From Acidimicrobiaceae bacterium (lineage in GTDB: Bacteria; Actinomycetota; Acidimicrobiia; Acidimicrobiales; Poriferisodalaceae): DNA of 59,766 nucleotides. A program made the position numbers and the translations under genes. Under the pieces are notes generated by a model. That model saw only the letters and a program-made list of their open reading frames with translations. It had not been told where the DNA came from and searched no databases. The stretch is from contig JAPOPC010000022.1 of assembly GCA_026713105.1 (NCBI GenBank), positions 1-59,766 of the forward strand, in the 5' to 3' direction. Of this stretch, positions 11,152 through 28,706 are shown piece by piece (within the stretch, counting starts at the first letter, position 1; each line of letters begins with the position of its first letter).

Positions 11152-11256
11152 GTGACGATCATGACCGCCTCCCGTTGTGCTTGTGCTCCATCGACCTGCC
11201 GCCCGGCTGGCTCATGTGAGGGCCACGGCGGGGCAGTCCTGGTGGCGGCTCGATGA
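11152..11256 (+). CDS. Possible Cys-rich micro-ORF coupled to prepilin peptidase
   Basis: A 34-codon frame from GTG 11152 reads VTIMTASRCACAPSTCR and then PAGSCEGHGGAVLVAAR. Its TGA overlaps the ATG of the next gene as ATGA. Four cysteines (C-x-C, C, C) could bind a metal or form disulfides. No homolog is recalled. The frame may be chance in GC-rich DNA; the stop/start overlap is the only positional support. Confidence 0.25.
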   Translation: MTIMTASRCACAPSTCRPAGSCEGHGGAVLVAAR

Positions 11257-11912
11257 CCGGGCCCTACGTGATCGCGGGTGCGGCGGTCGGATTCGGCGGG
11301 GCAGCGGCGGGCGTCGTGGTCGTACGTTGGGCGCGACGAGTCTTCGGCGTCGGCCTGCATGCGGCGGCGGCAATTGCGTCGTGCGTCGTCGTGGCGGCCT
11401 TGCTGGCGCTGCGTTTCCACCACAGCGCTTACCTCGCACCGTTGCTCGCGTTCGGATGGGCAGGAGTCGTCATCTCGGGCATCGACCTGCGCACCCACCT
11501 GATCCCCACACGGCTGCTGCGTGCGGCTGCCGCCATCGCTGTTCCGCTGGTGTGCGCCGCGGCAGCGATCGAAGGCGGATTGGCCGCCATGGCACGAGCG
11601 AGCGTCGCCGCGGCTCTTGGAGGGTGTGCCGGATGGGCGATGCTCCACCTTGTGTGGCTTGCCGCCAAGGGCGGCCTGGGCTACGGCGACGTGCGGCTCG
11701 GCGGGTACCTGGGCATGCACCTGGGCCTGGGCGGATTCACCCTGGTGCTGTGGGGCCTGCTGGCCGGATTCGCCATCGCCGCGCTCGTCGGCGCAGTCGG
11801 GGTGGTCGTGCTGCGTCGCGGCTCCAAATACCGGTTCGCGCTCGGTCCGTCGCTGGTCGCCGGTGCGCTCGCCGCCCTGTGGTGGTCTGCGCCGGGCGGG
11901 TTCGCCGTTTGA
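11253..11912 (+). CDS. Prepilin peptidase, A24 family (TadV/PilD-like)
   Basis: 219 residues with about six membrane segments. The two catalytic aspartates of the A24 family are visible: one in SGIDLRTHLIPTRLL and one in GLGYGDVRLG (the GxGD motif). It lacks the N-terminal methyltransferase domain of large PilD enzymes. It would cleave class III signal peptides of pilins at the inner face of the membrane. It is the only prepilin peptidase in the window and probably serves the Tad-like operon at 16219-26560. A prepilin peptidase gene in the aro cluster is common in actinobacteria. Confidence 0.88.
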   Translation: MTGPYVIAGAAVGFGGAAAGVVVVRWARRVFGVGLHAAAAIASCVVVAALLALRFHHSAYLAPLLAFGWAGVVISGIDLRTHLIPTRLLRAAAAIAVPLVCAAAAIEGGLAAMARASVAAALGGCAGWAMLHLVWLAAKGGLGYGDVRLGGYLGMHLGLGGFTLVLWGLLAGFAIAALVGAVGVVVLRRGSKYRFALGPSLVAGALAALWWSAPGGFAV

Positions 11913-16092: not shown

Positions 16093-16134
16093 GTTTCAAA
16101 TAAATAGAAAATGATTGGAATAATATGAAACAAC
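16093..16134 (+). promoter_or_regulatory. AT-rich promoter region of the Tad-like operon
   Basis: This 42-base stretch is the most AT-rich segment of the window and stands out from its GC-rich surroundings. It contains TTCAAA, AAATGATTGGAA and TAATAT (about 16120-16126). A canonical 17-base spacing cannot be drawn with confidence. It lies about 85 bases before the first gene of the operon and is its likely promoter and regulator-binding region. Confidence 0.5.
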
Positions 16135-16218
16135 TCGCCTAGAACTCGCCATGACTCCCCAGCAACGGCCCCGACGAAGTGAGGCGGCTGCGGAAGGCGA
16201 GTTCTCAGGAGCGGTGTG

Positions 16219-18156
16219 ATGGCCATCTTCCAATGCCAGCGGGCAAGAGTCGGGCGCCGAGCGTGCGCCGCAGCAGCGATGGCGGTGCTCGGGGCCGCAT
16301 GCAGCGGGGGTGACACGGAGCCTGTCGATCTCGGCATACCCATCTCGGCGGCACCGAGCGTTGCCACCACCGAGGTGCGTGCCGAAGCGCCCGTGCCGCG
16401 ACAGACCGGCGAATCGCGGACGATCAGCGCCGGTGATGGCGGCTTTCCGGTGCACCGCCAGCCGCCGCCGCCGTCTCTGCCATCGGCGATCAGCATCGGC
16501 GGCGGGCGCATCTGGGTGCCGTGGCCGCCCTACCCCGACCCTGGGGGATCCGCCCCCCAACAAGTGTCCGGTTCGCAGTCGGCGCTGCATGCCGACACGC
16601 AGGCGGGTTACCGGTTCGTCGTGGAACAGCGGGCCCGATGGGAGACGGTGCCTCCCTACTTGGGGGCTGCGCAGGCTGCGCTCGCCGCGGGCACGCGGCT
16701 GGCCGCACGGCGTGCGGGGACCGAGTCGGCCTGGGAACTCGTCGTGGACGCTGCCGGGTTGAGCCACGAGACGCGACTGGCTGCGGATCGGAGCGCCGCC
16801 TACGACCACGTGTCGCTGTGCCCGCCGCATCCGACCGCGGAGGTGCTGGGTCTCGACGTCGGCGAGACGGCGGGCGAGCGCGATCGGGCGAGCGCTGCCA
16901 TCGAGGCCTTCATGGTGGGAATGCGCTCGCCCGGCGACCGCCCGATGCACTCATGGGGCACCACGGTCAACGACATCGCCAAGCTGCTCGTCTACAGCCC
17001 TGGCGAGCCGATGGAGCTTGCCCTCGGCGGCCACAGTCTCACCGACATTGGGTACTTCCCGGGCGACTGGTCACTGCAGGCCCAGCAGTGGCTGACCCGG
17101 CGGGCAGCACAGGGCGCGGTCACTGATTCGCTGGTCGGCCATGCGGCCGTGAGCACCGGTCCCGAGACGCTCTGGGAGGCGTGCAGCGATCTGGCCACGA
17201 TCACCCCCGGCGTGTACACCGAGTCCCACCGCACCCGGCAACTGGAGTCGTTGTGGGCCCGCGGGCTGCGGCTGGAATTCGCCACGCCGCCTGTTGAGCG
17301 GGCATGGATCGCCGACATCAGCGCTGCGGGTCATGCGCTCGCCGTTGTCTGCCATGAGCCTGGGCAGTCGTTTCTGATCGATGCGTCGACGGGTGAGCGA
17401 CTCGATGCCGGCGCCGAACACCTGGCGCAGGTGGAGGCCATGTGGCTCACCTGGTCGCGTCTCAGTTACCGAGTGCTGCGAAATGCACTGTTCGAGGGCG
17501 CCTGTGACAGCGATGCCCTCGGCCGCGGATTGCAGTGGCTGGCCGAGGCCAAAGACGCCCACGCTGCCACGATCGATTGGAGCGAGCCGCGTGCTTGGGC
17601 CTCGGGCGTGCGCAACCAGTGGATCGCCGTCCGCGAATGGGTGGAAGTTCCCCAGTCGGAGGCGTGGCAGGCGCACCGTGATCACGGGTGGCACCTGGCG
17701 TTGTGGTGCCAGACCGGCATTCCCGTCGGCGCACTGGTCAACGGCGAGCTGCGCCGGCCCGAGCTGGCGTCTCATTGCACTGCCGAGCAATGGTCGGCGC
17801 TGGCCGCTGCCGCGGCAGCCGCGCCCGAAGTGACGGCCGAGCTCTCGGCCACGACGTGGGATTCGGGAGCGAGCTGGCACGAGCGCATGTATCTCTCGCC
17901 GTTCAAGTCGCTCGAGCAGGTGCTCGGATGCCCTGCGGATCCCGACCTCATCGGCGAGGCGCTCGCACGGCCGATTGAGCGACGGGCAAAAAAACCGTGG
18001 CCGCCGGGCTCGCTCCCGCTCACTGAGACTGAGCGGGCGTACCCGCGGCCAATGCCGCCGTGCCCGCAGGCCGGCTGGCCGCCGCAGACCGACCGCTACT
18101 GGTGGCCTGCCGCAGCACCGTTGGTCGAAGCGGCGCTCGCTGAGGTGTCCTCATGA
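16219..18156 (+). CDS. Large lipoprotein of unknown function, first gene of the Tad-like operon
   Basis: 645 residues from ATG 16219 (GTG 16216 adjacent), with an AGGAG site upstream. The N-terminus has arginines, a hydrophobic stretch and a lipobox (MAVLGAAC, cysteine about residue 30), so the mature protein should be a membrane-anchored extracellular lipoprotein. The rest is soluble, rich in Trp, Ala and Glu, with a Pro-rich segment at about residues 75-115 and a C-terminal PPxP-rich part. I recognise no domain. It overlaps the next gene by ATGA, so it belongs to the same transcript as the pilus genes. Confidence 0.75.
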   Translation: MAIFQCQRARVGRRACAAAAMAVLGAACSGGDTEPVDLGIPISAAPSVATTEVRAEAPVPRQTGESRTISAGDGGFPVHRQPPPPSLPSAISIGGGRIWVPWPPYPDPGGSAPQQVSGSQSALHADTQAGYRFVVEQRARWETVPPYLGAAQAALAAGTRLAARRAGTESAWELVVDAAGLSHETRLAADRSAAYDHVSLCPPHPTAEVLGLDVGETAGERDRASAAIEAFMVGMRSPGDRPMHSWGTTVNDIAKLLVYSPGEPMELALGGHSLTDIGYFPGDWSLQAQQWLTRRAAQGAVTDSLVGHAAVSTGPETLWEACSDLATITPGVYTESHRTRQLESLWARGLRLEFATPPVERAWIADISAAGHALAVVCHEPGQSFLIDASTGERLDAGAEHLAQVEAMWLTWSRLSYRVLRNALFEGACDSDALGRGLQWLAEAKDAHAATIDWSEPRAWASGVRNQWIAVREWVEVPQSEAWQAHRDHGWHLALWCQTGIPVGALVNGELRRPELASHCTAEQWSALAAAAAAAPEVTAELSATTWDSGASWHERMYLSPFKSLEQVLGCPADPDLIGEALARPIERRAKKPWPPGSLPLTETERAYPRPMPPCPQAGWPPQTDRYWWPAAAPLVEAALAEVSS

Positions 18157-20636
18157 GCGCCCTGCGCGGCTTGCCGGCCGAGCCTCATGAAGGACGTGGA
18201 GGCGGCTTGCGGCTCCCAGCTTGGTGGACGCTCGCTGTCGTGCTAGCGGTGCTCCCGCTAGCGGTGATGGCTGCACGCAGCGAGGCTGCCGGGGCGCAGA
18301 CATCGGTGACGCCGGTGCTGAGCTGCGGCGGCATGGTGCTCGACAGCGGCAGTGGAACCTGCCTGACGCCGCGCACTGAGACCGTGCTTCGCCCCTCAGG
18401 CTGCCCGGCGGGCTCGACGAAGGCGGCCGGGCAGTACGGCGGTCACGTGTGCCAGACGAAAGTGACCCGCAAGGTGGAGACAGGCCGGACGAAGCAGGTG
18501 TACAGCCGCACGACCTATGACAGGGTGTGGATGCCGACCGGCACCAAGCGAGTCCAAACCGGCACCAACCGCGTCTGGGTGCCGCCGAGCACGATGGTCG
18601 AGCCGCTGGTGCCGCCTGTGAGGGTGCAGGTCGGCACCCGCACTTCGTCGAAGACCGTCACCCGCCCAGGACCCGAGGTGCTCTACAAGGTCAGCTACAA
18701 GGTGACGGTGCGGACCGAGCGTGTGGTACGGCGATGCGCATTCGATCCGATCGCGGGTCGGCGGTGCTGGAACGAGACCGTCGGCGGGAAGCGCACCGAG
18801 ACTCGCACACGGCTCGAGTGCTGCATTGCGGGACCGCCGATCACCCGGACGATCACTACCAAAGTCCCTGTCTATAGCTACCGAACCTCGATGACGGTGA
18901 CCGTTCCCGGCTACTGGAGCGAGACACCCGTCTACGACGTGGTCGAGACCGGCTACTGGGATCGGGTGCCCACGATCCATTACACGACCGTGCCGGTCTA
19001 TGAGACGGTCGTCGAGTGGGTGACAGCGGCGGCGACGCAGGGCCCGTGCCCCGCCGGATGGCGCTCCGCCGGGAGTCAGTGTTCGCGTACCGTGCTGGGC
19101 CCGCCGTCAGCAGCGCCGGCCCAGAGCTGCCCGTCGGGAACGACGCCCCGTTATGGGGACGCACTCGGCGGCACCGGTCCTTCGGTGCTGACGTGCCAGT
19201 CGAATGCGCCCGGCTCAGACACCGACACCGGCACCGAGCAGGAGGACAGCGGTGGTTCGGAGACCTCGCCCGACGGCGGCGCTCGTCCGCTGCACCATCT
19301 CGCCGGCGAGAGCGACGAGCGGCTCGCCGAACTGGGCATCCACCGGTGCGCTGACGGGCTGCTGTCGTATGTGCCCTGCGACGAGCTGCCGGGTCGCACG
19401 TGGGAGAGCGACTCCGACGTCTGCGACGGCATCGACGGCACGACGTACCGGCCCGACCATGGCGGGAGCTGCGTCACCGAGAGCGACCTGCTCAACAAGT
19501 GCACGACGCCCGGCGACTGCGAGGAGACCACCGTGCGCACCTACTGCCCCGCGATCGGCGAGCTGGCGGACACGCAGATACAGGAGCACGCTCACCCTGG
19601 CCGCGGCGCGGAGACCTACCGGGTGTGCGTGTTCGACTGTGCGAGCTTCGGCACGCTGCCCCCGTATGTGCAGACCCGCATCAACGGCTCGTACGACTAT
19701 GCCTGCCTGCCGGTCCCCGAGCCCGAAGAGGAGCCATCGCCGACGACCACCAGCACGATCCCGACCACGACCACCACCACCGAGCCTGGCGAAGACGACG
19801 GTGACGACGATGGCGACGATGACGACGACCCAGGCGACCCACCCGACGTCACTGGGCCGGATACGACCAGGCCCGACACGACCAGGCCCGACACGACCGG
19901 GCCCGACACGACGGAGCCGGATACGACCGGGCCCGACACGACGGAGCCTGATACCACCGAGCCTGACACCACCGGGCCCCCCGGCGACAGGTGCGCACCG
20001 GTGCCGCCGGCCACGGCCGTCGCCGACGCACTGGCGTGGGAATCGCGTGTGCGCTCGACGGCCGCGGCCGACGCCGCCCAACGCGATATGCCCGGCGGAG
20101 GTCGGTTCCTGCAGGTAGCACCCGGACGCGGCTGGATGAGCGCAGCCCGCGCCAGTGAGATCACCGACGCGAACTGCACGTGGGTCGCGACCCACGTGCG
20201 CACTGCTTGGTCGGAATTACGACCGTGGGAGCCTCCCGAGCGCCGGGCGATGATGGCAGACGATGACACCAGGCGCCTGGTGCAGCGTTGGGATGCGCTG
20301 AGCGCAGAGCATCGGCGTCTCACGAGTCAATGGCATCGACCGGGTGCCGTTCCGTCCGACATCGTCTGCACGGTCGGCGACGCCTCCGGGCCGGGCGCAT
20401 CGGCGGCGTGCGGGTGGGTGCTCGCTCGTCCGGCGGCATACGCCTGGCGAGCTGCCATGTGCTTCGAGCCGCAGACCTCACCGGGCCGATCAAGGCCCGG
20501 ATCGCCGAATCGCAGCGAGCCCGCTGCGGACGATCCATGCTGGGTGCGGCTCGGCTCGGGCGTGGACTGGATTCGCTCGGTCGGCGACTACGCCGACGGC
20601 CGCGTGACCCTCACCCAGAGCGGGAACGGTTCGTGA
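18153..20636 (+). CDS. Large secreted surface protein with Val/Tyr-rich ladder and PDTT repeats
   Basis: 827 residues. A signal peptide (about residues 21-46, WWTLAVVLAVLPLAVMAARS) is followed by about 300 residues of alternating Val/Thr/Arg/Tyr strands (TYDRVWMPTGTKRVQTG, TVPGYWSETPVYDVVETGYW) likely to form beta structure. A Cys-containing region follows, then a Thr/Pro linker, an Asp-rich run (DDGDDDGDDDDD), eight PDTTx pentapeptides (569-608), and a C-terminal globular part. No closing LPxTG anchor is seen. No known family recognised. It may be an adhesin or pilus-associated protein. It overlaps its neighbours at both ends (ATGA, GTGA). Confidence 0.75.
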   Translation: MSALRGLPAEPHEGRGGGLRLPAWWTLAVVLAVLPLAVMAARSEAAGAQTSVTPVLSCGGMVLDSGSGTCLTPRTETVLRPSGCPAGSTKAAGQYGGHVCQTKVTRKVETGRTKQVYSRTTYDRVWMPTGTKRVQTGTNRVWVPPSTMVEPLVPPVRVQVGTRTSSKTVTRPGPEVLYKVSYKVTVRTERVVRRCAFDPIAGRRCWNETVGGKRTETRTRLECCIAGPPITRTITTKVPVYSYRTSMTVTVPGYWSETPVYDVVETGYWDRVPTIHYTTVPVYETVVEWVTAAATQGPCPAGWRSAGSQCSRTVLGPPSAAPAQSCPSGTTPRYGDALGGTGPSVLTCQSNAPGSDTDTGTEQEDSGGSETSPDGGARPLHHLAGESDERLAELGIHRCADGLLSYVPCDELPGRTWESDSDVCDGIDGTTYRPDHGGSCVTESDLLNKCTTPGDCEETTVRTYCPAIGELADTQIQEHAHPGRGAETYRVCVFDCASFGTLPPYVQTRINGSYDYACLPVPEPEEEPSPTTTSTIPTTTTTTEPGEDDGDDDGDDDDDPGDPPDVTGPDTTRPDTTRPDTTGPDTTEPDTTGPDTTEPDTTEPDTTGPPGDRCAPVPPATAVADALAWESRVRSTAAADAAQRDMPGGGRFLQVAPGRGWMSAARASEITDANCTWVATHVRTAWSELRPWEPPERRAMMADDDTRRLVQRWDALSAEHRRLTSQWHRPGAVPSDIVCTVGDASGPGASAACGWVLARPAAYAWRAAMCFEPQTSPGRSRPGSPNRSEPAADDPCWVRLGSGVDWIRSVGDYADGRVTLTQSGNGS
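19857..19976 (+). repeat. Eight tandem 15-bp repeats encoding PDTTx
   Basis: Eight in-frame 15-base units encode PDTT followed by R, R, G, E, G, E, E, G. The block follows an Asp-rich tract and forms an extended linker in the secreted protein. Copy number could vary without frameshift. Confidence 0.9.
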
Positions 20637-21391
20637 CCTCCGCAGGGCCAACGGGATACTCGGCCGACGGTCAGCCGCCGGGTCTCGCCGGCGGGCCGCG
20701 GCATGGCCCGGAGCCGTGGCGCCTGGGGGCTGCAGCGCTGATCGTTGCCACCGTCGTGGCTGCGATCTGGCTGTGGGGTCGTCCCCATGCCGAGCCGCCG
20801 GCCGCGCTGGCGGCGATCACATCGGAGGCGTGGATGGCGGGTCAGCCGCCGGGCGCGTTCGAACTCGTCGAAGTGGCAGCGCAGCTCGCAGAACAGCTCG
20901 CCGATCCGAGTTCGATCCCGGGCAGCGTCGCGACCCATGACCTCCCGTCGGGAACGCTCGTGACGCCAGCCTTGCTCGGCGTCGCCAGCGACGCCAGCGG
21001 CGCGCTCACTGCGATGCGCTTTCCGGCAGACACCTCGGCCTGGCCGGCGCCCGGTCCGGGTGCGGGCAGCCGAGCCGTGGTGGCAGGCGTGCTCGGCGGC
21101 TGCGCTCTCGACGTGACGACCTTGGCAGGTGGCGCCGAGGGCAGCATCGTGGTTCGAGTCGATGCGCCTGGAGCTGCGCGCTACGCGAACGCGTCCGAGC
21201 TCGACGGGCTCGTGGCGTGGCCGGCGCCGCCCGACGGCTGGCCCGAGTGCCGCTCGCCGGGGGCCGGCAACACGCTCCCGTGGTCGGGTTACGGCAGCGG
21301 GGCGTCGCCCGGATTCGACCGCCAGACACCGCCCGGATTCGGCAGCGAGGCGCCGTCGGCGACACCGTCGGGGAACCCGGCGGAGGGCTGA
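20633..21391 (+). CDS. CpaB/RcpC-like SAF-domain protein
   Basis: 252 residues from GTG 20633, overlapping the preceding stop as GTGA. One N-terminal membrane segment (LGAAALIVATVVAAIWLWG, about residues 31-49) is followed by an extracytoplasmic domain. The stretch SVATHDLPSGTLVTPALLGV matches the SAF-type motif of CpaB/RcpC pilus assembly proteins. The C-terminus is Gly/Pro-rich. In Tad systems CpaB connects the pilus machinery to the cell envelope. The assignment rests on the motif plus position directly before the ATPase. Confidence 0.65.
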   Translation: MTSAGPTGYSADGQPPGLAGGPRHGPEPWRLGAAALIVATVVAAIWLWGRPHAEPPAALAAITSEAWMAGQPPGAFELVEVAAQLAEQLADPSSIPGSVATHDLPSGTLVTPALLGVASDASGALTAMRFPADTSAWPAPGPGAGSRAVVAGVLGGCALDVTTLAGGAEGSIVVRVDAPGAARYANASELDGLVAWPAPPDGWPECRSPGAGNTLPWSGYGSGASPGFDRQTPPGFGSEAPSATPSGNPAEG

Positions 21392-21394
21392 GAA

Positions 21395-23431
21395 ATGCTC
21401 CTGGTGCTGTGCGACGACGCCGTGAAACCTGCGGCGCGCGACTGGTGCCGGGACGCGCTGCGTGCAGGGCTGTCGGCTGCCGCGGGCCAGGTCTTCATCT
21501 GGTCCGACGTGTCGTCGATGTCGCCGCCCGTGGGGTCGGGCGAGCCGTGCGTGGTCTGGCTGACCAGCTCTGCTGAGCGCGATGTGATCGCCGCGGCGGC
21601 AGCGGCGGCCAGCGAGATCGTGCTGCTGCTCGGCGCCTCGGCCGGGTTGTCTGCGGCTCGATCCGGCGACGGCACCGAGGTGGCGCGGGCTTGGCATGCA
21701 GCGGCTTCGGTCACGGTGCCGCGGGTCGCGGTCTGGCTGCCGGCGGCCGGCGGCGGCCGGGGGGATCCCACCGGTGAGCTTTCTGCGGCCCTCGGGGCCG
21801 ACCGGGTCGTGCGCATCAAGCGGATGGGCACGCGCAGCGCACTTCGTCAGATGCACCGGCTCGGCCGTGCGCTCACTGCGTCGGCATGTGCGCCCCAGCG
21901 GCTCGACCGCTCCGACGGCGCTGTGCGGCGACGCAACGCCGCCCGCGCTGCCACCGATGCCCTCGAAGACCTGCTGGCCGAGCCCGATGTCGAGGAGTTC
22001 CAGATCCGCGGCGGGGAGTCGATGCTGGTCCAGTACGCCGGGGGCCGAGTCGAGCGCCGGCCGTCGCCGTTCGCAGCAGACGCCGATCTCATCGAGGCGG
22101 TGCGATTCCTGGCCGGCTATTCCGGCGATCGCCCGCAGCGCTTCGACGAGCTCGACCCGCGCCTCGACGTGCGCGTGGGGGACCGTTGGCGGCTCCACGC
22201 CGAGGCGTTCGTCACCAGCCCGCCGAACGTCGTGCTGCGTTCCAACATGGCCGGGCGGATCCGTCTTGACGATCTCGGCGTCGCGTCGCCAGAGCTGGGC
22301 AGCGTGCTGATCGAGGCCATCACCGGTCGGGTGCGAGCGAACGTGGTGGTGGCAGCGGCGATGGGCGGCGGCAAGACCACGCTGTGCCAGGCGCTGCTGG
22401 CGGCGGTGCCCGATCACGAGCGCATCGACACCATCGAGGACACTCCCGAGCTTCGCCTGCACGAGTACGGCATTCACCCCAACACCTACGAGCGGCTGAC
22501 CCGCGATCCCAACCAGGACGGTCACGGGCGCCATTCCATGGCCGATCACATCCGGGATGCCAAGCGGGCCAATGCCGCCAAGCTCGTGGTGGGCGAGATC
22601 CGCGGCGAGGGCTGCGCGGCGCTGCTCGACGCCATGTCGTCGGGGCTCGACGGCTGCCTGGTCACGCTGCATTCCCAGCCCGGCAAGGGCGTGCTCGAGA
22701 AGCTGGTGGCCTACGCCTGCTCGGAGGGCGCCGAGCCCGACTATGCCCGCCGGCAGATCGCCTCGGCGGTGGACCTGTGCGTGTGGCTGGGCCGCAACGA
22801 CGCAGGCGAGCGCGTCGTGGCAGATGTCACCCAGCTCACCGGCATCGATGAGCTGTCGGGTGTCATCTCCACGACGTGCCTGTGGGCGCTGCAGCCGGGC
22901 GATCGCTGGGCGACGCCCCGCGGGCGTCCCATGGGTCGGGTGGCACAGATCTGCGGCGTCGCCGGGGTCGCGTTCGACAGCGACCCTCAGCCCGACGGAC
23001 CGACGCTGTTCTCCCAGATCGTCGACACCCCCGGACCCGCACTGTCCGACCCGTCCGAACCCACGCCCCCCGACATGCCCGGACCTTCGTCCCTCGACCC
23101 GTCCGCACTCACCCCCTCCGACGCAGCCGTTCCCGAGCGCACGTCTGCACTGGCAGACAACCCCGCTCCCCGTGGCCCCGCTTCTCCTGCTAGCGCGGTT
23201 CGCGCCAGCAATCCGGTTCCGTCGCGGCAGCCTTCGGGCGGTTCGGAACCCGCGGTACGTGCAGGCCAAGGGCCGACGTCGGCCGCGCCGCAGCACGACT
23301 CGCCGATGTTCGACGCGGTCTCCTGCGACGGTGCCAAGCGGGGTGACGTGTTGTGGGATCCGGGCCCGCTCGTGCCGATCGACGACCCGCCGCCCTACGA
23401 ACCGCTCGTCGACGAGGAGGCTGCGTGCTGA
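21395..23431 (+). CDS. tadA: TadA/CpaF-type secretion ATPase with extra N- and C-terminal regions
   Basis: 678 residues. Residues about 190-540 form the type II/IV secretion ATPase: DVEEFQIRGGESMLVQY, Walker A AAAMGGGKTT (K327), DTIEDTPELRL, Walker B-like LVVGEIRGEG (E401) and TLHSQPGKGVLEKL. Residues 1-180 form a separate domain with no P-loop, perhaps a degenerate TadZ/CpaE-like module (VFIWSDVSSM, SEIVLLLGAS). The last 130 residues are Pro/Ser-rich and disordered. A hexameric ATPase of this type powers pilus assembly at the cytoplasmic membrane. It lies in the typical order before tadB and tadC. Confidence 0.88.
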   Translation: MLLVLCDDAVKPAARDWCRDALRAGLSAAAGQVFIWSDVSSMSPPVGSGEPCVVWLTSSAERDVIAAAAAAASEIVLLLGASAGLSAARSGDGTEVARAWHAAASVTVPRVAVWLPAAGGGRGDPTGELSAALGADRVVRIKRMGTRSALRQMHRLGRALTASACAPQRLDRSDGAVRRRNAARAATDALEDLLAEPDVEEFQIRGGESMLVQYAGGRVERRPSPFAADADLIEAVRFLAGYSGDRPQRFDELDPRLDVRVGDRWRLHAEAFVTSPPNVVLRSNMAGRIRLDDLGVASPELGSVLIEAITGRVRANVVVAAAMGGGKTTLCQALLAAVPDHERIDTIEDTPELRLHEYGIHPNTYERLTRDPNQDGHGRHSMADHIRDAKRANAAKLVVGEIRGEGCAALLDAMSSGLDGCLVTLHSQPGKGVLEKLVAYACSEGAEPDYARRQIASAVDLCVWLGRNDAGERVVADVTQLTGIDELSGVISTTCLWALQPGDRWATPRGRPMGRVAQICGVAGVAFDSDPQPDGPTLFSQIVDTPGPALSDPSEPTPPDMPGPSSLDPSALTPSDAAVPERTSALADNPAPRGPASPASAVRASNPVPSRQPSGGSEPAVRAGQGPTSAAPQHDSPMFDAVSCDGAKRGDVLWDPGPLVPIDDPPPYEPLVDEEAAC

Positions 23432-24198
23432 ACTTCGTGGCACTCGGCGTCGCCGGTTCCAGCGCTGCGCTGTGGGCTCTGTTTTCTGATGTCGTCCGGG
23501 CTCGACCTGCCGAGGGAGCCTCGCTGCGCTGGCCCTGGCTGGTAAGCGGGATGGCGGCCTTCTGCGCCGGCTTGCTGTTCGGCCCTGCTGCGGCTGGGCT
23601 GGCAGCCGCGGTGGCGGGCATCTGTGCGTGGTGTGCTGCGACGGTCACGCGCAGTCGCTCGCGCGTGGCAGAGGCGGAATCGGTCGCGCAGTTCGCAGCC
23701 GTCCTGGCCAATCAGGCGCAGGTTTCCCGAACGGTGGTGGACGCGCTCGAAACGTCGGCGCCGCTGGCTTCGGGGCCGATGGCGCAGACCGCGGCCAGGT
23801 TCGTCGCCGAGTGCCGCAGCATCGGCGTCGAGGCGGCAGCGCAGCAGTTCGCAGCCGGCGGCGAGGGCGCCGTCGCCGCGTGGCTGGCAGATGCCGTGGC
23901 CGTGGCCGCATCCAGCGGAGGCGAGTGGGTGCCGATCCTGGAGGTGGTGGAGTCTGAGGCGGCTGAGGCGGCTGCGACGGCCCGGCACTTTCACCGCCAC
24001 GTCGCTGCAAACCTGCCCCAGCTCGGCCTCGCCGCAGCGCTCGGCGCCGCCGTGGCGCTCGGCAGCGCACTCGTGAGCCCCGATTCCTGGGCGTGGCTGA
24101 GCGGGCCCCAAGGTCAACGCGTCGGTCTCGCAGCCACCGTGATCGGCGTCGCGCTGTGCGCACGCCCGCTCGCCACGGCATGGGAGATGCTGCGATGA
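23425..24198 (+). CDS. tadB: TadB-like pilus assembly platform membrane protein
   Basis: 257 residues from GTG 23425, overlapping the ATPase stop by seven bases. It has N-terminal membrane segments, a cytoplasmic helical region of the type II secretion F family (QFAAVLANQAQVSRTVVDALETSAPL, with a repeat-like second half FVAECRSIGVEAA), and two C-terminal membrane segments (LAAALGAAVALGSALV, GLAATVIGVALCA). The arrangement matches TadB inner-membrane platform proteins. It is shorter than many TadB proteins. Confidence 0.8.
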   Translation: MLNFVALGVAGSSAALWALFSDVVRARPAEGASLRWPWLVSGMAAFCAGLLFGPAAAGLAAAVAGICAWCAATVTRSRSRVAEAESVAQFAAVLANQAQVSRTVVDALETSAPLASGPMAQTAARFVAECRSIGVEAAAQQFAAGGEGAVAAWLADAVAVAASSGGEWVPILEVVESEAAEAAATARHFHRHVAANLPQLGLAAALGAAVALGSALVSPDSWAWLSGPQGQRVGLAATVIGVALCARPLATAWEMLR

Positions 24199-24962
24199 GC
24201 GGCGCCCTTCCGCCGCTCGGCGCCGTCGCCCTGTGGGCCATGGCGGGAACTGGCGTGGTCGCCGCGCTCGGCTCGCTCTCGACGAGCGAGCGCAAACGTC
24301 GCAACCGCAGGCGGCTGGCTGCGCTGGGCTGGAGCACCCCTCGCCTCACCATGCTCACCGCTGCTGTTGCGGTAGCGGCCGTCGGTGTGGGGTTCGTCGC
24401 TGGTGCCCGGCTGCCCGCGCAGGGTGCCGCGTCGCCGACCTCAGCGTTGGCATGGTCGCTGCTCGTGGCGGTGGTGGCGTCGTGGGGCGTGCCGGCGGTC
24501 GTTGCCAGCGCGGTGCTGTCGGGTCATCGCCGCCGGCTGGACGGTGCCGTGCTGCTGTGGCTGCGCCGTATCCGCTTGTTCGTGGCCGCCGGACGGCCGA
24601 TCAGCGTGGCCGTGCTCGATGCGGCGGAGCGTGTCACCGACCCGGCCTTCGCGCCCGCTGCGGGTGCTGTCAATGCGGCGGTGATCGGCGGCCGCGACCC
24701 GCTCGGCGCCGTGGCTGCCCAGCTCGCCGATTCGCCGACCGCCTCGCTGCTGCGCACGGTGGACGCCGCGGAGCGGTCCGGCGCCGCCGCCTCACAACTG
24801 CTCGACCGTGTGCTGGACCGCGTGGTGCGAGCCATCGACGACCGCCACCGCGAAGCCATCGACCGCCTCGGCCGAACCGTCGGCGCATCCGCCTCGCTGC
24901 TCGCAGTGGTGGCCTCCGCCGTCGTCATGGTGACCATCGTCATGACCCTGCCGAGCGTGTAA
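24195..24962 (+). CDS. tadC: TadC-like pilus assembly platform membrane protein
   Basis: 255 residues, ATG overlapping the tadB stop as ATGA. Hydrophobic N-terminal segments, a central region LLWLRRIRLFVAAGRPISVAVLDAAERV typical of the T2SSF-like fold, and a C-terminal membrane segment (SLLAVVASAVVMVTIVMTLPSV) indicate the second platform protein. The ABC order and the ATGA coupling support co-assembly with TadB. Confidence 0.8.
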   Translation: MSGALPPLGAVALWAMAGTGVVAALGSLSTSERKRRNRRRLAALGWSTPRLTMLTAAVAVAAVGVGFVAGARLPAQGAASPTSALAWSLLVAVVASWGVPAVVASAVLSGHRRRLDGAVLLWLRRIRLFVAAGRPISVAVLDAAERVTDPAFAPAAGAVNAAVIGGRDPLGAVAAQLADSPTASLLRTVDAAERSGAAASQLLDRVLDRVVRAIDDRHREAIDRLGRTVGASASLLAVVASAVVMVTIVMTLPSV

Positions 24963-25041
24963 GGCCGCCGATGAGCGCCGCATGCAACTACTCCGCCGCA
25001 AGGAACCCAACCGCCCGAAGGAACGGGCAAGGAGCCAACTC

Positions 25042-25254
25042 ATGGATTCACCAGTCACCAAGCTGATCTTCATCGCCGCCGCAGTCGCCGCCTCAGTGCT
25101 GGTCGTAGCAGTCATGTGGACCACCCTTAGCGCCAACGCTCCGCAGTCGACTGGCGACGCAGTCAATTACTCGAAGATTCAGTCGCCGGGGCTCTGCACC
25201 GCCGTGGGCGGCAATTGGACAGGGCCCGATGATTCCGGCGCTTGCGCCGGGTGA
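25042..25254 (+). CDS. Small membrane protein, candidate atypical Flp-like pilin
   Basis: 70 residues. ATG 25042 is chosen because AAGGAG sits seven bases upstream; an in-frame ATG at 24982 lacks that. A short N-terminus (MDSPVTK) is followed by a hydrophobic helix (LIFIAAAVAASVLVVAVMW) and a polar tail with two cysteines in a C-x4-GGNW-x7-C arrangement. Size and position right after tadC match Flp pilins, but no G/E prepilin cleavage motif is visible. It may be an unusual pilin or a membrane accessory. Confidence 0.6.
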   Translation: MDSPVTKLIFIAAAVAASVLVVAVMWTTLSANAPQSTGDAVNYSKIQSPGLCTAVGGNWTGPDDSGACAG

Positions 25255-25292
25255 TCTGACCGTCCTCATGTCCCGAGACTGAGCGAGCTGGC

Positions 25293-25709
25293 ATGGATAG
25301 CTCAATCTCGATCCTGCGGTTGTTCAGCGTGCTGGTTGTGTTCCTGGCGCTCGTGGTTTCGATGTTCACCCGCCAGGTCGGCGCCGTGGCTGCGCAGGGT
25401 GCCGCTGACGCCGCGGCTTTCGCCGTGATCGACCTCGTACCGCCGGAATGGGACTGCACCGAAGTGACCCTGCCTGCCAGTGCCACGGCGACCGCGGCCC
25501 AGGCAGCAGTGGACCGCACGGCGCAGCTCGCTGCTGTGCAGCCCACTTCGGTCGAGGTGAGCACCGACGGCACATGTTCGGTCATTGTGTCGGTGCGGGT
25601 CTCATCGGAAGGTTGGCTCGGGTCGCGCGACGCACTCGGCGTGGCCTGTCGCCGCCCGCCGTCGGTCGAGGGTGCCGCGCTGTGGGCGCCGGTGGCACCG
25701 CCGTGCTGA
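25293..25709 (+). CDS. TadE/TadF-like pseudopilin-type protein (first of three)
   Basis: 138 residues. N-terminal hydrophobic helix (LRLFSVLVVFLALVVSMF) preceded by a short polar start, then RQVGAVAAQGAADAAAFAVIDL, the Ala-rich helix typical of TadE-like minor pilins, then a beta-rich domain with three cysteines. It lies downstream of tadABC, as tadE/tadF genes do. It would be exported and may be a minor pilin. Assignment is by architecture, not clear motif identity. Confidence 0.6.
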   Translation: MDSSISILRLFSVLVVFLALVVSMFTRQVGAVAAQGAADAAAFAVIDLVPPEWDCTEVTLPASATATAAQAAVDRTAQLAAVQPTSVEVSTDGTCSVIVSVRVSSEGWLGSRDALGVACRRPPSVEGAALWAPVAPPC

Positions 25710-25742
25710 GCAGCGCCGCGTCCGACTGGGGGAGGCCGGCTC

Positions 25743-26165
25743 ATGGATGAGAGCGTCGGGATGCTCAGTGTGGTGGCCGTGCTGGTGTTCGGCGTCTGGC
25801 TGGTGGACTACTCGGGCGACGCGACCCGGGCCGCGGGCAGCATCCATGCGGCGAGCGCCGAGGCAGCGCACTACGCCGCCAGCGCGCTCGCGTCGCCGCC
25901 AAGCGGCGTCACGGCCGCTGAACTCGACGGCCATGCCACCGGCATCGCCAACCGCGTCGTCGGTGCGGCGGCCGTCTCCGACTGCGACACCGCCGATCCC
26001 CGCTTCGGCGTTACGGCAGCCGTGCACCGGCTGCCGCCGGACGCCGAGCCCGCAGCAGTCAGCGTTGCGGTGACCTGCCCGCTCGCAGTGTCGTCGATCT
26101 TCACCGACACCGTCAGCGGCCGGGTTGCCGTGCCCGTGCCTGAACGCCTGGCGGTGCAGCCATGA
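25743..26165 (+). CDS. TadE-like pseudopilin-type protein (second of three)
   Basis: 140 residues starting MDESVGMLSVVAVLVFGVWLVDY, a hydrophobic N-terminal helix near an acidic residue. It continues AAGSIHAASAEAAHYAASAL and ends in a soluble domain with two cysteines (SDCDTADPRFG and VTCPLAV). It shares the plan of its two neighbours and overlaps the third by ATGA. Likely minor pilin of the Tad-like system. Confidence 0.6.
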   Translation: MDESVGMLSVVAVLVFGVWLVDYSGDATRAAGSIHAASAEAAHYAASALASPPSGVTAAELDGHATGIANRVVGAAAVSDCDTADPRFGVTAAVHRLPPDAEPAAVSVAVTCPLAVSSIFTDTVSGRVAVPVPERLAVQP

Positions 26166-26560
26166 GCATGCCCCTGGTTGCGCTGGCGCTGGCGGCGATG
26201 TGTGCGCTGTTCAGTGCCGCTGCAGCAGACACCGCCCAGGCCATCGGGCTGCGCAATCACGCCGCGAACGAGGCCCGCCGAATAGCTGTCAGCACCCTCG
26301 ACGACCGTGCGCTCGGCAAGGACGAGGGCAACGACGCCTGCCCAGTGCCGCCGGAGCGCACACAGATCGGGCGCGCAAGAATGCAGTGCTCGGTGTGCCG
26401 ACATGACCACGTTGTGCGAGCCGACGTCTCGCTCGAGTGGTCACCGGTCTTGCTGTCGGGCCTGACGCCTGCGCGTGGCCGCCACGCGCTGAGCCTCGAA
26501 GCGCTCAACGTCGTCGGCACGAGCTTCCCCGCCTGCACCTCACCGAGTTCCACACCCTGA
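26162..26560 (+). CDS. TadE-like pseudopilin-type protein (third of three)
   Basis: 132 residues. Very short N-terminus, hydrophobic helix (MPLVALALAAMCALFSAAAA), then a helical stretch (QAIGLRNHAANEARRIAVST) and a Cys-containing domain including CSVC. It is the last gene of the operon that starts at 16219, ATGA-coupled to the preceding gene. Related in plan to the two genes before it; gene duplication is possible but the sequences are too diverged for me to prove it. Confidence 0.55.
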   Translation: MSMPLVALALAAMCALFSAAAADTAQAIGLRNHAANEARRIAVSTLDDRALGKDEGNDACPVPPERTQIGRARMQCSVCRHDHVVRADVSLEWSPVLLSGLTPARGRHALSLEALNVVGTSFPACTSPSSTP

Positions 26561-26564
26561 CGCA

Positions 26565-26786
26565 GTGATCCCGTCCGTCGCAGCGAGCGCGTATAAGCAC
26601 GGCATTTCCGAAGAGGACATCTTGCACGCCTATCGCAATCCGATCCGGTTGTACTACCAAGACCATCGAGTGCTGCTCGTCGGCGGCGGCTGGGGCGGGA
26701 ACATCTTGGAGATCGGCGTCGAAGAGGGCGAGGAGCGAGACATCATCATTCATGCGATGCCGGCGCGGGATAAGTTTCTCCAATGA
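26565..26786 (+). CDS. Small toxin-like protein (BrnT/DUF4258-like)
   Basis: 73 residues from GTG 26565. It reads KHGISEEDILHAYRNPIR, then YYQDHRVLLVGGGWGGN, then LEIGVEEGEERDIIIHAMPAR. This helix-strand pattern ending in an IIHAMxAR(D/x)KF motif is common in small proteins annotated as toxins of type II modules in actinobacteria. It overlaps the next gene, a small helix-turn-helix protein, by ATGA, which supports a toxin-antitoxin pair. No catalytic residue is assigned. Confidence 0.55.
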   Translation: MIPSVAASAYKHGISEEDILHAYRNPIRLYYQDHRVLLVGGGWGGNILEIGVEEGEERDIIIHAMPARDKFLQ

Positions 26787-27088
26787 GCAAAGCCCGCCGT
26801 TCGGTCGAGGAAATTCGCTCGCAGGCTGATGAGTTGGCAGGCTGGTTTGAGGACTTCGATCCCTCCGAGGCGCATGAGGTCCCGGTCGCCGAATACCTGC
26901 TAGAGCGAGCTGCGCGGACCCGAACACTTTGCGAACGTGAGGTCGCCCAAGCAGTCGGTGAGGCGCGCGTCGGCGGCGCCACATGGTGTCGGATCGGTGA
27001 AATTCTCGGTTTGGACGAGCGGACTGCACGCGAGACGTACGGTCCCAGCGAAGATCAACGGGCCGAGGCCGGCACCAACGGGCCTTGA
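26783..27088 (+). CDS. Small helix-turn-helix protein, possible antitoxin partner
   Basis: 101 residues. The C-terminal half AVGEARVGGATWCRIGEILGLDERTARETYG is a helix-turn-helix of the kind found in many small actinobacterial proteins (AR-x-G-x-(S/T)-W-x-x-IG-x-x-LG). The N-terminal half is acidic and helical (ADELAGWFEDFDPSEAHEV). ATGA overlap with the preceding toxin-like gene suggests it neutralises or regulates it. Its TGA overlaps a TTG that could start the next frame. Confidence 0.6.
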   Translation: MSKARRSVEEIRSQADELAGWFEDFDPSEAHEVPVAEYLLERAARTRTLCEREVAQAVGEARVGGATWCRIGEILGLDERTARETYGPSEDQRAEAGTNGP

Positions 27089-27093
27089 CCGCC

Positions 27094-27687
27094 ATGCCCG
27101 AACCCGAACCGCGAGGCTGGAGACGAGTTCTCGGCACGTTGATGGCGCTTGCCCTCGTGCTGATAGCAGCTTTTTTTGTGTGGCCCGAATTGCCGGGGAT
27201 GGGCCTGTGGGGGGATCGGGTCAGCAGTGAGGCTCCAGCCACCACGACAACGCCAATTCCCGTGGGCGTCATCGACGGGCTTTCTGAAGAAGCGGTAGCC
27301 AGCTGTATCCGGGCTGAGCGCGAATTGGCATACAGCGCAGGGGCGCTCGAGGGCGTGCTGAAACTCGACGAGCTGCTACGAGAAGTCAGAAAACCGCCGT
27401 TCACGAGTGTCGATACGCTCACAGACGCACAAGATGCTGGCATGGCGTCGTACGATGGCCAGTCGACGCTCGACGTGCGCACTTCGGTGGGAACGTCTCA
27501 GCGGGTGGCAGTACTGGATGCTGTAGGTATCGCGACACGGGCAATGAGCGACGATGTGTTCGCGGCTTCGCATGCTCAGTTGGATGACGATCTGCAAGCG
27601 ACGCAGGACTTGATCGACTTCCTCACCGGTCTCTTCGACGAAGCTGGCGAAACTGTCGAAATCGCTTGTGCCGGAATGCCGGCATGA
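27094..27687 (+). CDS. Hypothetical membrane-anchored protein
   Basis: 197 residues from ATG 27094 (TTG 27085 is a coupled alternative). One membrane segment near the N-terminus (TLMALALVLIAAFFVWPEL) is followed by an extracytoplasmic domain with a Thr-rich linker and helical content, including two cysteines. Not recognised. Codon use looks less GC-biased than in the housekeeping genes. Coupled to the gene after it by ATGA, so it is part of a four-gene unit 26565-27950. Confidence 0.55.
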   Translation: MPEPEPRGWRRVLGTLMALALVLIAAFFVWPELPGMGLWGDRVSSEAPATTTTPIPVGVIDGLSEEAVASCIRAERELAYSAGALEGVLKLDELLREVRKPPFTSVDTLTDAQDAGMASYDGQSTLDVRTSVGTSQRVAVLDAVGIATRAMSDDVFAASHAQLDDDLQATQDLIDFLTGLFDEAGETVEIACAGMPA

Positions 27688-27950
27688 ATGAACCAGCCCA
27701 AGATCGACCGATGTCGGCGAGCGTGCGCGATCAGTTGCTCGTTCGAATAGGAATACTCGAAGTTGCTTTCGTCAACGCCGTTCAGCTACTCGATGTCACA
27801 CAGCGCGAACGTCTGGTCCAAGCGTTGCTGAATGAGACTCCAGTGCTCGGCCGCGAGTTCACGAGTCATGAGGCGCTCGCCTTTGAGAATCGCATCTGTG
27901 CTTGGATCCGAGACGGATCTGATCCGCTCAACCTCTGGGAGCCGCTCTGA
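27684..27950 (+). CDS. Small hypothetical protein
   Basis: 88 residues, ATG overlapping the preceding stop as ATGA. Mostly helical and acidic (QLLVRIGILEVAFVNAVQLLDVTQRERLVQALL), ending in a short Trp-containing tail. No membrane segment. Not recognised. It ends 64 bases before the convergent vapC. Confidence 0.5.
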   Translation: MNEPAQDRPMSASVRDQLLVRIGILEVAFVNAVQLLDVTQRERLVQALLNETPVLGREFTSHEALAFENRICAWIRDGSDPLNLWEPL

Positions 27951-28014
27951 CTAACTCAGTGCTTTCGAGCACACGGCGGCGCCTCGCCTCGGCCGTATCG
28001 GCGGGTGAGTGTTG

Positions 28015-28431
28015 CTAGTTCGGGACAATGTGGAGCGGTTCGCCGGTGAGGGATCGCAGTGCGCCGAAGTGCCTGCGGTCCAGCGTGAGGATGGTGTCGG
28101 TTCCGTAGCGCGCTGCGAGCACCACCAGCGAGGCATCCGTGATTCCGATGCCGAGGTCCCGGTAGCGAGCGATGAGGTCCAGGGCCTGCGCGATGTCGGC
28201 GGCGCTCATCGCGGCGAGTTCGTATGCGCCTCCGGCCAGTTCGGCCAGCACAGCCAACTCGGCGTCGACGCCCTTGCGCGTGGCCACGAGATAGTCGAGT
28301 TCGGCCACAACGTACGGCGAGACGACCATCAGCTCGCCGTGGGCTTCGAGCCATGCGCTCACGTCGTCATGCTGGGCGCCTGATTTGCTGTAGAACGCGA
28401 TCAAGGCGCTGGTGTCGGCGACGACGGTCAC
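28015..28431 (-). CDS. vapC: VapC-type PIN-domain ribonuclease toxin (second)
   Basis: 138 residues from GTG on the minus strand (28431), overlapping the antitoxin stop as GTGA. PIN acidic residues: D6 (VVADTSAL), E44 (VVAELDYLVA), D99 (GITDASLVVLAARYG) and D118 (TLDRRHF), all intact. The open frame extends further upstream through the antitoxin gene in another frame, which is spurious. Not closely similar to the PIN protein at 589-975. Confidence 0.87.
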   Translation of the reverse strand: MTVVADTSALIAFYSKSGAQHDDVSAWLEAHGELMVVSPYVVAELDYLVATRKGVDAELAVLAELAGGAYELAAMSAADIAQALDLIARYRDLGIGITDASLVVLAARYGTDTILTLDRRHFGALRSLTGEPLHIVPN

Positions 28432-28634
28432 TCGCCGAAGCCTGCGAGCAGCTCGTCGACCTCGAGCGCCCATGCGCTGTCGCCCCCGATGATGCCTGAC
28501 CGGGGGGCGGGCCGCGACACGGCGTCGGCGACGGCTTGGCGGATCACCTCGGCTTCGGAGCACGACCGCAGCCGGGCCTCTCGCTCCACACCGGCCTTGA
28601 TCTTCTCAGGCAGGTAGACAGTGGTCTTGTGCAT
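28428..28634 (-). CDS. vapB: VapB-type ribbon-helix-helix antitoxin (second)
   Basis: 68 residues starting MHKTTVYLPEKIKAGVEREA, a clear ribbon-helix-helix N-terminus, followed by RSCSEAEVIRQAVADAV and a C-terminal tail (RSGIIGGDSAWALEVDELLAGFGE) that would bind the toxin. ATG 28634 is favoured over an upstream ATG because the RHH strand starts there and a -10-like box lies seven bases upstream. Coupled to vapC by GTGA. Confidence 0.87.
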   Translation of the reverse strand: MHKTTVYLPEKIKAGVEREARLRSCSEAEVIRQAVADAVSRPAPRSGIIGGDSAWALEVDELLAGFGE

Positions 28635-28641
28635 GCCATAT

Positions 28642-28647
28642 ATGGTA
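28642..28647 (-). promoter_or_regulatory. -10-like box for the second vapBC, leaderless
   Basis: On the minus strand TACCAT is seven bases before the antitoxin ATG. CCATATATGG around it is palindromic and could be an operator. Confidence 0.45.
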
Positions 28648-28706
28648 CCAGCACCAGCTACTGATGGACCGAGAACGCCGGCGCAATCCATGGGTCGGTG
28701 CGTGCG

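Follow-up and report, generated by a model that had tools for sequence, protein, structure and literature searches.

What kind of machine is encoded by a Tad-like operon whose small subunits show no processing leader and whose first two genes fit no known family? We address this question for a run of ten genes, g1-g10, in the window, a stretch of 59,766 nucleotides (contig JAPOPC010000022.1, assembly GCA_026713105.1, from an Acidimicrobiaceae bacterium of the Poriferisodalaceae). The window is contig 26 of a draft genome of 3.96 Mb in 117 contigs that is 94% complete, and some close protein relatives carry names such as 'Candidatus Poriferisodalis sp.' or 'Acidimicrobiales bacterium'; the window genome may itself be a member of the former genus. 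Our favoured reading, to which we assign a probability of about 0.43, is that the operon encodes a divergent Tad-type machine, likely with a short rod of unprocessed pilin-like subunits that likely displays or braces the surface pair formed by g1 and g2. We do not file the locus as a plain Tad (type IVc, Flp) pilus, because the leader feature of Flp and TadE proteins was tested for and was not found.

The ten genes run along the + strand at 16219-26560, confirming a sequence-only reading of this DNA that had described ten closely packed genes, with successive gaps from g1 to g10 of -4, -4, +3, -7, -4, +79, +38, +33 and -4 bases. Thus, five of the nine junctions overlap by 4-7 bases and the largest gap is 79 bases. 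The ATGA/GTGA coupling that had been described for the first two genes is indeed present, as ATGA at 18153 between g1 and g2 and as GTGA at 20633 between g2 and g3. The operon is composed of the following features.

16219..18156, + strand: g1, 645 residues, predicted lipobox (C28), no known family
17074..17502, + strand: g1 residues 286-428, weakly NTF2-like region of the structure model
18153..20636, + strand: g2, 827 residues, Sec-type signal (by eye), no known family
18444..19031, + strand: g2 residues 98-293, extended beta-strand, stalk-like region rich in Y, W, V and T (structure model)
19272..19712, + strand: g2 residues 374-520, Cys-rich domain conserved in the genus (invariant columns of the alignment)
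19719..19985, + strand: g2 residues 523-611, acidic, Thr-Pro-rich linker (sequence; pLDDT <50)
19986..20633, + strand: g2C, the C-terminal domain of g2, common to the class (hhalign, alignment A3)
20633..21391, + strand: g3, CpaB/RcpC-like membrane protein (weak SAF; weak scores, conserved position)
21395..23431, + strand: g4, TadA/CpaF-type ATPase, 678 residues, extra N-terminal region and Pro-rich C-terminal tail
22355..22378, + strand: altered Walker A of g4, AAMGGGKT against GxxGxGKT
23425..24198, + strand: g5, TadB-position platform protein, GTG start (by position)
24195..24962, + strand: g6, TadC platform protein
25042..25254, + strand: g7, 70 residues, one helix, small two-Cys ectodomain (C..GG.W..C), major-pilin position, no leader motif
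25293..25709, + strand: g8, TadE/G-like one-helix protein, no leader motif
25743..26165, + strand: g9, TadE-position one-helix protein, no leader motif from this start
26162..26560, + strand: g10, TadE/F-position one-helix protein, no leader motif

The motor and the pilin-like proteins

Type IV filament assembly is described as requiring prepilin processing (PMC10191384, PMC12075869), prepilins being processed prior to assembly at a leader that ends in Gly or Ala, with a Glu at +5 that is common but not invariant (PMC10191384). The motif we used is [GA]-x4-E (Gly or Ala, then Glu at +5) at the start of the helix, read from the conserved start, and the sample comprised 84 proteins from 22 loci (22 of g7, 22 of g8, 21 of g9 and 19 of g10). 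None of the 84 carries it. For g7, no Flp-type leader was found in any of the 22 loci, upstream extensions included, and among g8, g9 and g10 a TadE/TadF leader is present from the conserved start in 0 of 62 proteins. The hydrophobic stretch of g7-g10 begins at most five residues from the start, and two g7 proteins show the G-x4-E spacing only behind the helix.

Next, we considered starts upstream of the conserved ones. No upstream in-frame ATG, GTG or TTG exists for 57 of the 84 genes, and seven of the other 27, all of them g9 genes of the genus, would gain G-x4-E. The Gly codons of these seven extensions fall mostly within GGGAGG-like stretches at the expected ribosome-binding site, and the upstream motif may be chance, or the relic or beginning of a leader. 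In the window, g8, g9 and g10 have no upstream in-frame start, and g7 is preceded by AAGGAG, resembling a ribosome-binding site, with one further in-frame ATG 20 codons upstream. In 15 of the 22 loci an in-frame stop precedes g8 by three codons or fewer, too close for a leader to fit. For control, 14 further tad loci from these and related genomes were surveyed with a looser pattern on stop-to-stop open reading frames (ORFs), and clear leader motifs (GLTTLEWLL, GLATLEWLL, GQATVELALL etc.) were recognised by eye in nine; one control-locus protein is a TadE (E 1.6e-9).

By family assignment, the small proteins are similarly elusive. The weak Pfam matches of 15 g7 members include no pilin family, g8-g10 yield no supported Pfam match in the window, and the g8 profile finds no match below E 0.079 among PDB sequences. 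The sequence-only reading had called these proteins TadE-like, which stands insofar as they are one-helix proteins in TadE/F positions and is weak by sequence, with PF13400 (Tad) reached at E 0.066 in 1 of 15 g8 members. The g7 motif C-x4-GG-x-W-x(n)-C is present in all groups, and by eye also appears, seemingly once, in the f70/f81 lipoproteins (L104/L105).

The motor itself is better defined. g4 provides the extension ATPase of TadA type typical of a Tad pilus, matching T2SSE at E 1.9e-16 and TIGR03819 at E 2.9e-40 (below the equivalog cut-off of that model), with CpaF as the nearest PDB sequences (E 6e-29 over residues 189-493), and g6 matches T2SSF at E 3.2e-8, above the cut-off. Consequently, the Tad core named in the sequence-only reading holds for TadA and TadC. 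Its SAF/CpaB and TadB members are less firm: g3 scores below cut-off for SAF (E 0.12) and CpaB (E 0.062), and g5, which has no supported Pfam match, is a TadB by its position between TadA and TadC, kept in genus and class loci. Position and class-wide alignment would thus suggest the name of g5 as well as those of g8-g10. Among the ten operon genes, no separate TadZ gene was recognised, and Pfam returned neither a prepilin peptidase (TadV) nor a secretin family.

g4 also belongs to a distinct TadA subtype, separate from the remaining TadA proteins of these genomes, one tree group that holds 13 of 13 rows together with support 100/100. In all 20 aligned members Ala or Ser replaces the first Gly of the P-loop, a residue present in each of 14 further TadA-type ATPases in the alignment; the P-loop Lys and Thr, the acidic box and the Walker B Glu are retained in the subtype. 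Since Ala is a permitted variant at this site of the general Walker A pattern, the enzyme is probably active. The altered Walker A and the absent prepilin leaders both go beyond the sequence-only reading. The own genome and its relatives hold other TadA-type loci too, with GLTTLEWLL-type pilins (L069, L070, L078-L081), and the count of TadA-type matches differs between genomes.

Genus-wide, the gene order is conserved far beyond chance. On the contigs of 11 relatives the order of the window is kept for g1-g9 in 11 of 11 and for g10 in 10 of 11, the eleventh contig ending before g10. g1 was recovered from all 11 genomes of the genus (counting the own) and from none of the 28 genomes that represent the family's other genera. 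The TadA subtype is absent from the same 28, 22 of which have no match at E <= 0.001, the best match among the other six reaching 32% identity (E 2.8e-34). The neighbourhood comparison hence places g1 and g2 with tadABC in 11 of 11 relatives, and within the genus the two proteins neither belong to well-known families nor occur mostly away from tad genes, either of which had been held to speak against an undescribed system.

A gene for pilin processing is located outside the operon:

11253..11912, + strand: A24 prepilin peptidase gene, 4.3 kb upstream of the operon (PF01478 E 3.6e-7 on 11448-11780)

The genome can therefore process pilins. This gene sits in an aroE-aroB-aroQ-efp-nusB-like housekeeping cluster (gene names by eye).

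The head pair and its distribution in the class

Searches of Pfam and NCBIfam, with matches considered up to E = 1, gave no family for g1 or g2, in line with the earlier description of two large proteins of unrecognised family, and neither is pilin-like by any search made. Of the 23 aligned g1 sequences, 18, that of the window among them, fit a PROSITE-like lipobox pattern, and two of the five sequences lacking the pattern, P0055 and P0056, also lack the Cys. Mean column identity is 57% in the g1 alignment (23 sequences, eight invariant Cys) and 54% in that of g2 (29 sequences), the latter with a dense run of invariant columns at residues 374-520, and 73 proteins, the own sequence among them, match g2 at E <= 0.001. 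We infer that this conservation is more in keeping with a part of a machine than with a fast-changing antigen, and the two proteins may act as the anchor and adhesin that the sequence-only reading had proposed. The g2 model (overall mean pLDDT 60.5) has strands at residues 98-143, 178-198, 202-222 and 254-293, and part of the stalk-like region is an insertion missing from some relatives. Two short stretches of the own genome near contig ends (G000:C30:85636-85716 and G000:C106:66318-66398) match stalk residues 184-211 with 59% identity at E 1e-4, possibly representing related stalk proteins.

To place the machine beyond the genus, 296 Acidimicrobiia genomes were searched with g4 at E <= 1e-60. 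The TadA subtype was found in 11 of them (counting the own), spread over four genera and four families; such matches, as well as those of g2C, fall in few genera, and the counts are thus not independent events. Ten class loci derive from nine of the ten other genomes, and the tenth, G336, whose TadA contig starts at the TadA gene, was examined via its g2C contig. In these loci, from three further families of the class, the order g3-g8 is kept in 10 of 10, g9 and g10 were placed by profile in eight, and g2C lies directly before g3 in eight. Upstream of g3, each of the seven complete standard loci has a lipobox protein of 334-573 residues followed by a secreted protein of 432-519 residues (lipoboxes and signals by eye). 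The arrangement differs in L102 and L103, both of one family, where the pair lies downstream of g8 and has an N-terminal helix instead of the lipobox; by eye, the CpaB-like protein of these two loci seemingly consists of three repeats. In the f70 operon L105, a gene for a further secreted-looking protein, with no Pfam match, lies directly upstream of the lipoprotein gene (5349-6386), and similar ORFs occur in the f70 operons L106, L107 and L134.

The domain that unites the secreted proteins is g2C, common to the genus, the f70/f81 set, the f36 set and L102 at hhalign probabilities of 86-97% (pairwise E 5e-6 to 2e-10). When the same 296 genomes were searched with alignment A3, g2C was detected in 12, comprising all 11 with the TadA subtype and G421. 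Of its 19 rows, 12 are accompanied by tad genes and seven are without them or unplaceable (two short fragments, one on a 3.4 kb contig). Four copies with readable surroundings have no tad genes in the fetched 7-20 kb, namely L128 (G421:C49), L129 (G421:C69), L131 (G367:C67) and L132 (G367:C8). In each of the four, the next recognisable gene upstream encodes a lipobox protein, and three of these proteins are homologues of the one in the f70 slot (E 1e-90, 4e-86 and 4e-99, best queries). Altogether, in all 15 loci with a readable upstream stretch the first recognisable gene ahead of g2C is one for a large anchored protein, carrying either a lipobox or an N-terminal helix. Among 246 genomes across the phylum we found no TadA of the subtype (E <= 1e-70) and no credible g2C outside the own genome.

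The proposal that the first two genes belong to the machine is hence upheld in part. g1-g9 stay together in 11 of 11 relatives and g2C is present in all 11 genomes with the TadA subtype, but outside the genus lipoprotein and g2C pairs are also found away from tad genes. The g1-g2-type pair is a unit that rides usually, not always, with the machine. N6/N4 DNA methylase genes are likewise present in L128 and L129, and the pair of L129 is directly followed, by eye, by another lipoprotein-like and secreted-like gene pair. In f81, the L103 operon has a large SNF2/helicase protein of 2089 residues upstream and L104 an ArdC-like gene, neighbours that hint at mobile elements.

Readings of the machine

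In the favoured reading, TadA would drive TadB and TadC, and a rod based on g7 would be extruded or moved, with g8-g10 at its end and the CpaB-like g3 lining its path across the envelope. g1 would be held at the outer membrane face via its lipid, and g2, exported by Sec, would use g2C to dock onto g1 or the tip of the rod, holding the beta-stalk and the Cys-rich part outward. The pair g1 and g2 is likely the tip or foot of this machine, anchored and exchangeable. Since such pairs are found on their own as well, a single machine could accommodate several different ones.

Known systems provide the frame for this proposal. With the Tad pilus the operon shares the TadA/CpaF-type ATPase, two platform-position genes, a weakly CpaB/RcpC-like gene and small one-helix proteins at the 3' end. 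It differs in that neither an Flp-type pilin nor a TadE/TadF leader motif is seen from conserved starts and no TadV or TadZ gene was recognised within it, and in having an altered Walker A, and a lipoprotein and a g2C protein as head genes. g3 resembles RcpC of the Tad alignment complex by position and weak score; RcpC works together with an outer-membrane secretin (PMC12307814), in contrast to the operon, where none was matched. A precedent for a Tad-type machine with more than one separate tip cluster may be the Tad-like Kil pilus of Myxococcus, where genomes can hold several separate possible-tip clusters for one machine type (PMC12075869). The tips of Kil consist of minor pilins in which a prepilin peptidase site is predicted (PMC12075869), whereas g1 is a predicted lipoprotein and g2 a predicted Sec-secreted protein, neither of them a minor pilin with such a site. 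Leaderless pilin-like rods may in turn find a precedent in the archaellum stator, where ArlF and ArlG lack a class III signal peptide and an ArlF/ArlG complex ties the ArlG rod to the S-layer (PMC8978795). The likeness of g7-g10 (from conserved starts, and with the reservation on g9) is in the missing signal peptide, and g4 is closer to CpaF than to FlaI (E 6e-29 against 1e-7, PDB sequences). It is from the archaellum and Kil precedents combined that the short unprocessed rod displaying or bracing g1-g2 is proposed.

Several observations weigh against it. The leader test relies on the Glu at +5, which is not invariant among known pilins (PMC10191384), minor pilins are functional only once processed (PMC12075869), and five of the 14 control loci also show no clear motif (L072, L073, L076, L077 and L082). 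An upstream in-frame start gives G-x4-E in 7 of 21 g9 genes (L030-L032, L034-L037), and some g9 may thus have a short leader. Moreover, the genome has three PF01478 matches, one of them the gene 4.3 kb from the operon. As to the head pair, the structure models of g1 and g2 are poor (pLDDT ~60), and hhalign gives only 3.9%, 2.1% and 0.2% for g1 against the same-slot proteins of other families; with no recognisable relationship, position and anchoring are what suggest a common role of the g1-slot proteins. G421, in addition, has lipoprotein and g2C pairs and no TadA of the subtype (best match 33%, E 3.2e-27), and the pair therefore does not need that machine. Filament, secretion and adhesion would, at this stage, all be functions read from genes.

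Some of these points also favour a more conventional explanation, an ordinary Tad pilus in which a canonical Flp pilin from another tad locus forms the filament, or g7-g10 are cut at unrecognised sites or starts, and g1 and g2 are accessory adhesins. We regard this as possible, if on the unlikely side. The other TadA-type loci of the genome, two of them beside Flp-like GLTTLEWLL/GLATLEWLL proteins, would supply such a pilin, the three PF01478 matches and the seven extended g9 genes agree with processing, and prepilin peptidases are known to serve several systems (PMC6668835). On the other hand, read from conserved starts, the motif is missing in all four small proteins, g7-g10, and in all four groups of loci, no Flp-type gene was recognised in these operons and g7 occupies the pilin position.

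Another explanation shifts the purpose of the rod: leaderless and similar to the pseudopilus of type II secretion, it would push the Sec-exported g2 through the cell wall, with g1 as an outer-face chaperone or pilotin. g2 is indeed co-encoded and has a Sec-type signal by eye, and the ATPase and platform proteins are present with no recognised major pilin. Tad platforms are, however, not known for piston-type secretion, and since Acidimicrobiia are taken to be without an outer membrane such a device would be less needed; we consider it quite improbable. Scarcely likely, in our judgement, is that the lipoprotein and g2C pair is an independent surface module, for example mobile-element cargo for surface exclusion or attachment, that merely shares the operon. 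This idea is congruent with the four pairs that lack tad genes within the fetched 7-20 kb, two of them close to DNA methylase genes, and with tad-linked copies by an SNF2-type helicase in one case and an ArdC-like gene in another. Against it, g2C is present in every genome of the 296 with the TadA subtype, and the genes overlap and are syntenic across the genus.

The divergent Tad-type machine can also be framed more boldly, as a type IV filament machine that works entirely on leaderless subunits, independent of prepilin peptidase, with exchangeable cartridges of an anchored and a g2C protein as its working end, patchily distributed in Acidimicrobiia. We deem this stronger form unlikely. A class-wide Tad-motor operon with four pilin-like proteins in which no leader motif is seen from the conserved starts makes the prepilin-processing rule testable, and the g2C domain provides a handle for finding the system. 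From the pairs that stand apart from tad genes, it would seem that exchangeable non-pilin end pieces may be accepted by Tad-type machines.

Control region and flanks

The operon is preceded by a conserved element:

16094..16150, + strand: AT-rich control region with conserved element (relatives' consensus AATCATTGGAATGATCTGAAACAACGCGCCTAGAACTC, core partly palindromic)

An unusually AT-rich promoter region had been described here, and indeed the 40-mer at 16094, with 17.5% GC, is the lowest-GC 40-mer in the whole window. In all 10 relative loci tested, the lowest-GC 40-mer is likewise placed ahead of g1, and there it overlaps a 38-base element. With a limit of nine mismatches, each of the 11 relatives shows a single copy of this element ahead of g1, at 0-9 mismatches of 38, and the copy of the window has four mismatches to the relatives' consensus. 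A single sigma-70-like site is located at 16095-16124. Further upstream, efp and nusB are kept complete in 9 of 11 relatives. Downstream of the operon, at 26565-28691, small gene pairs resemble toxin-antitoxin modules by eye.

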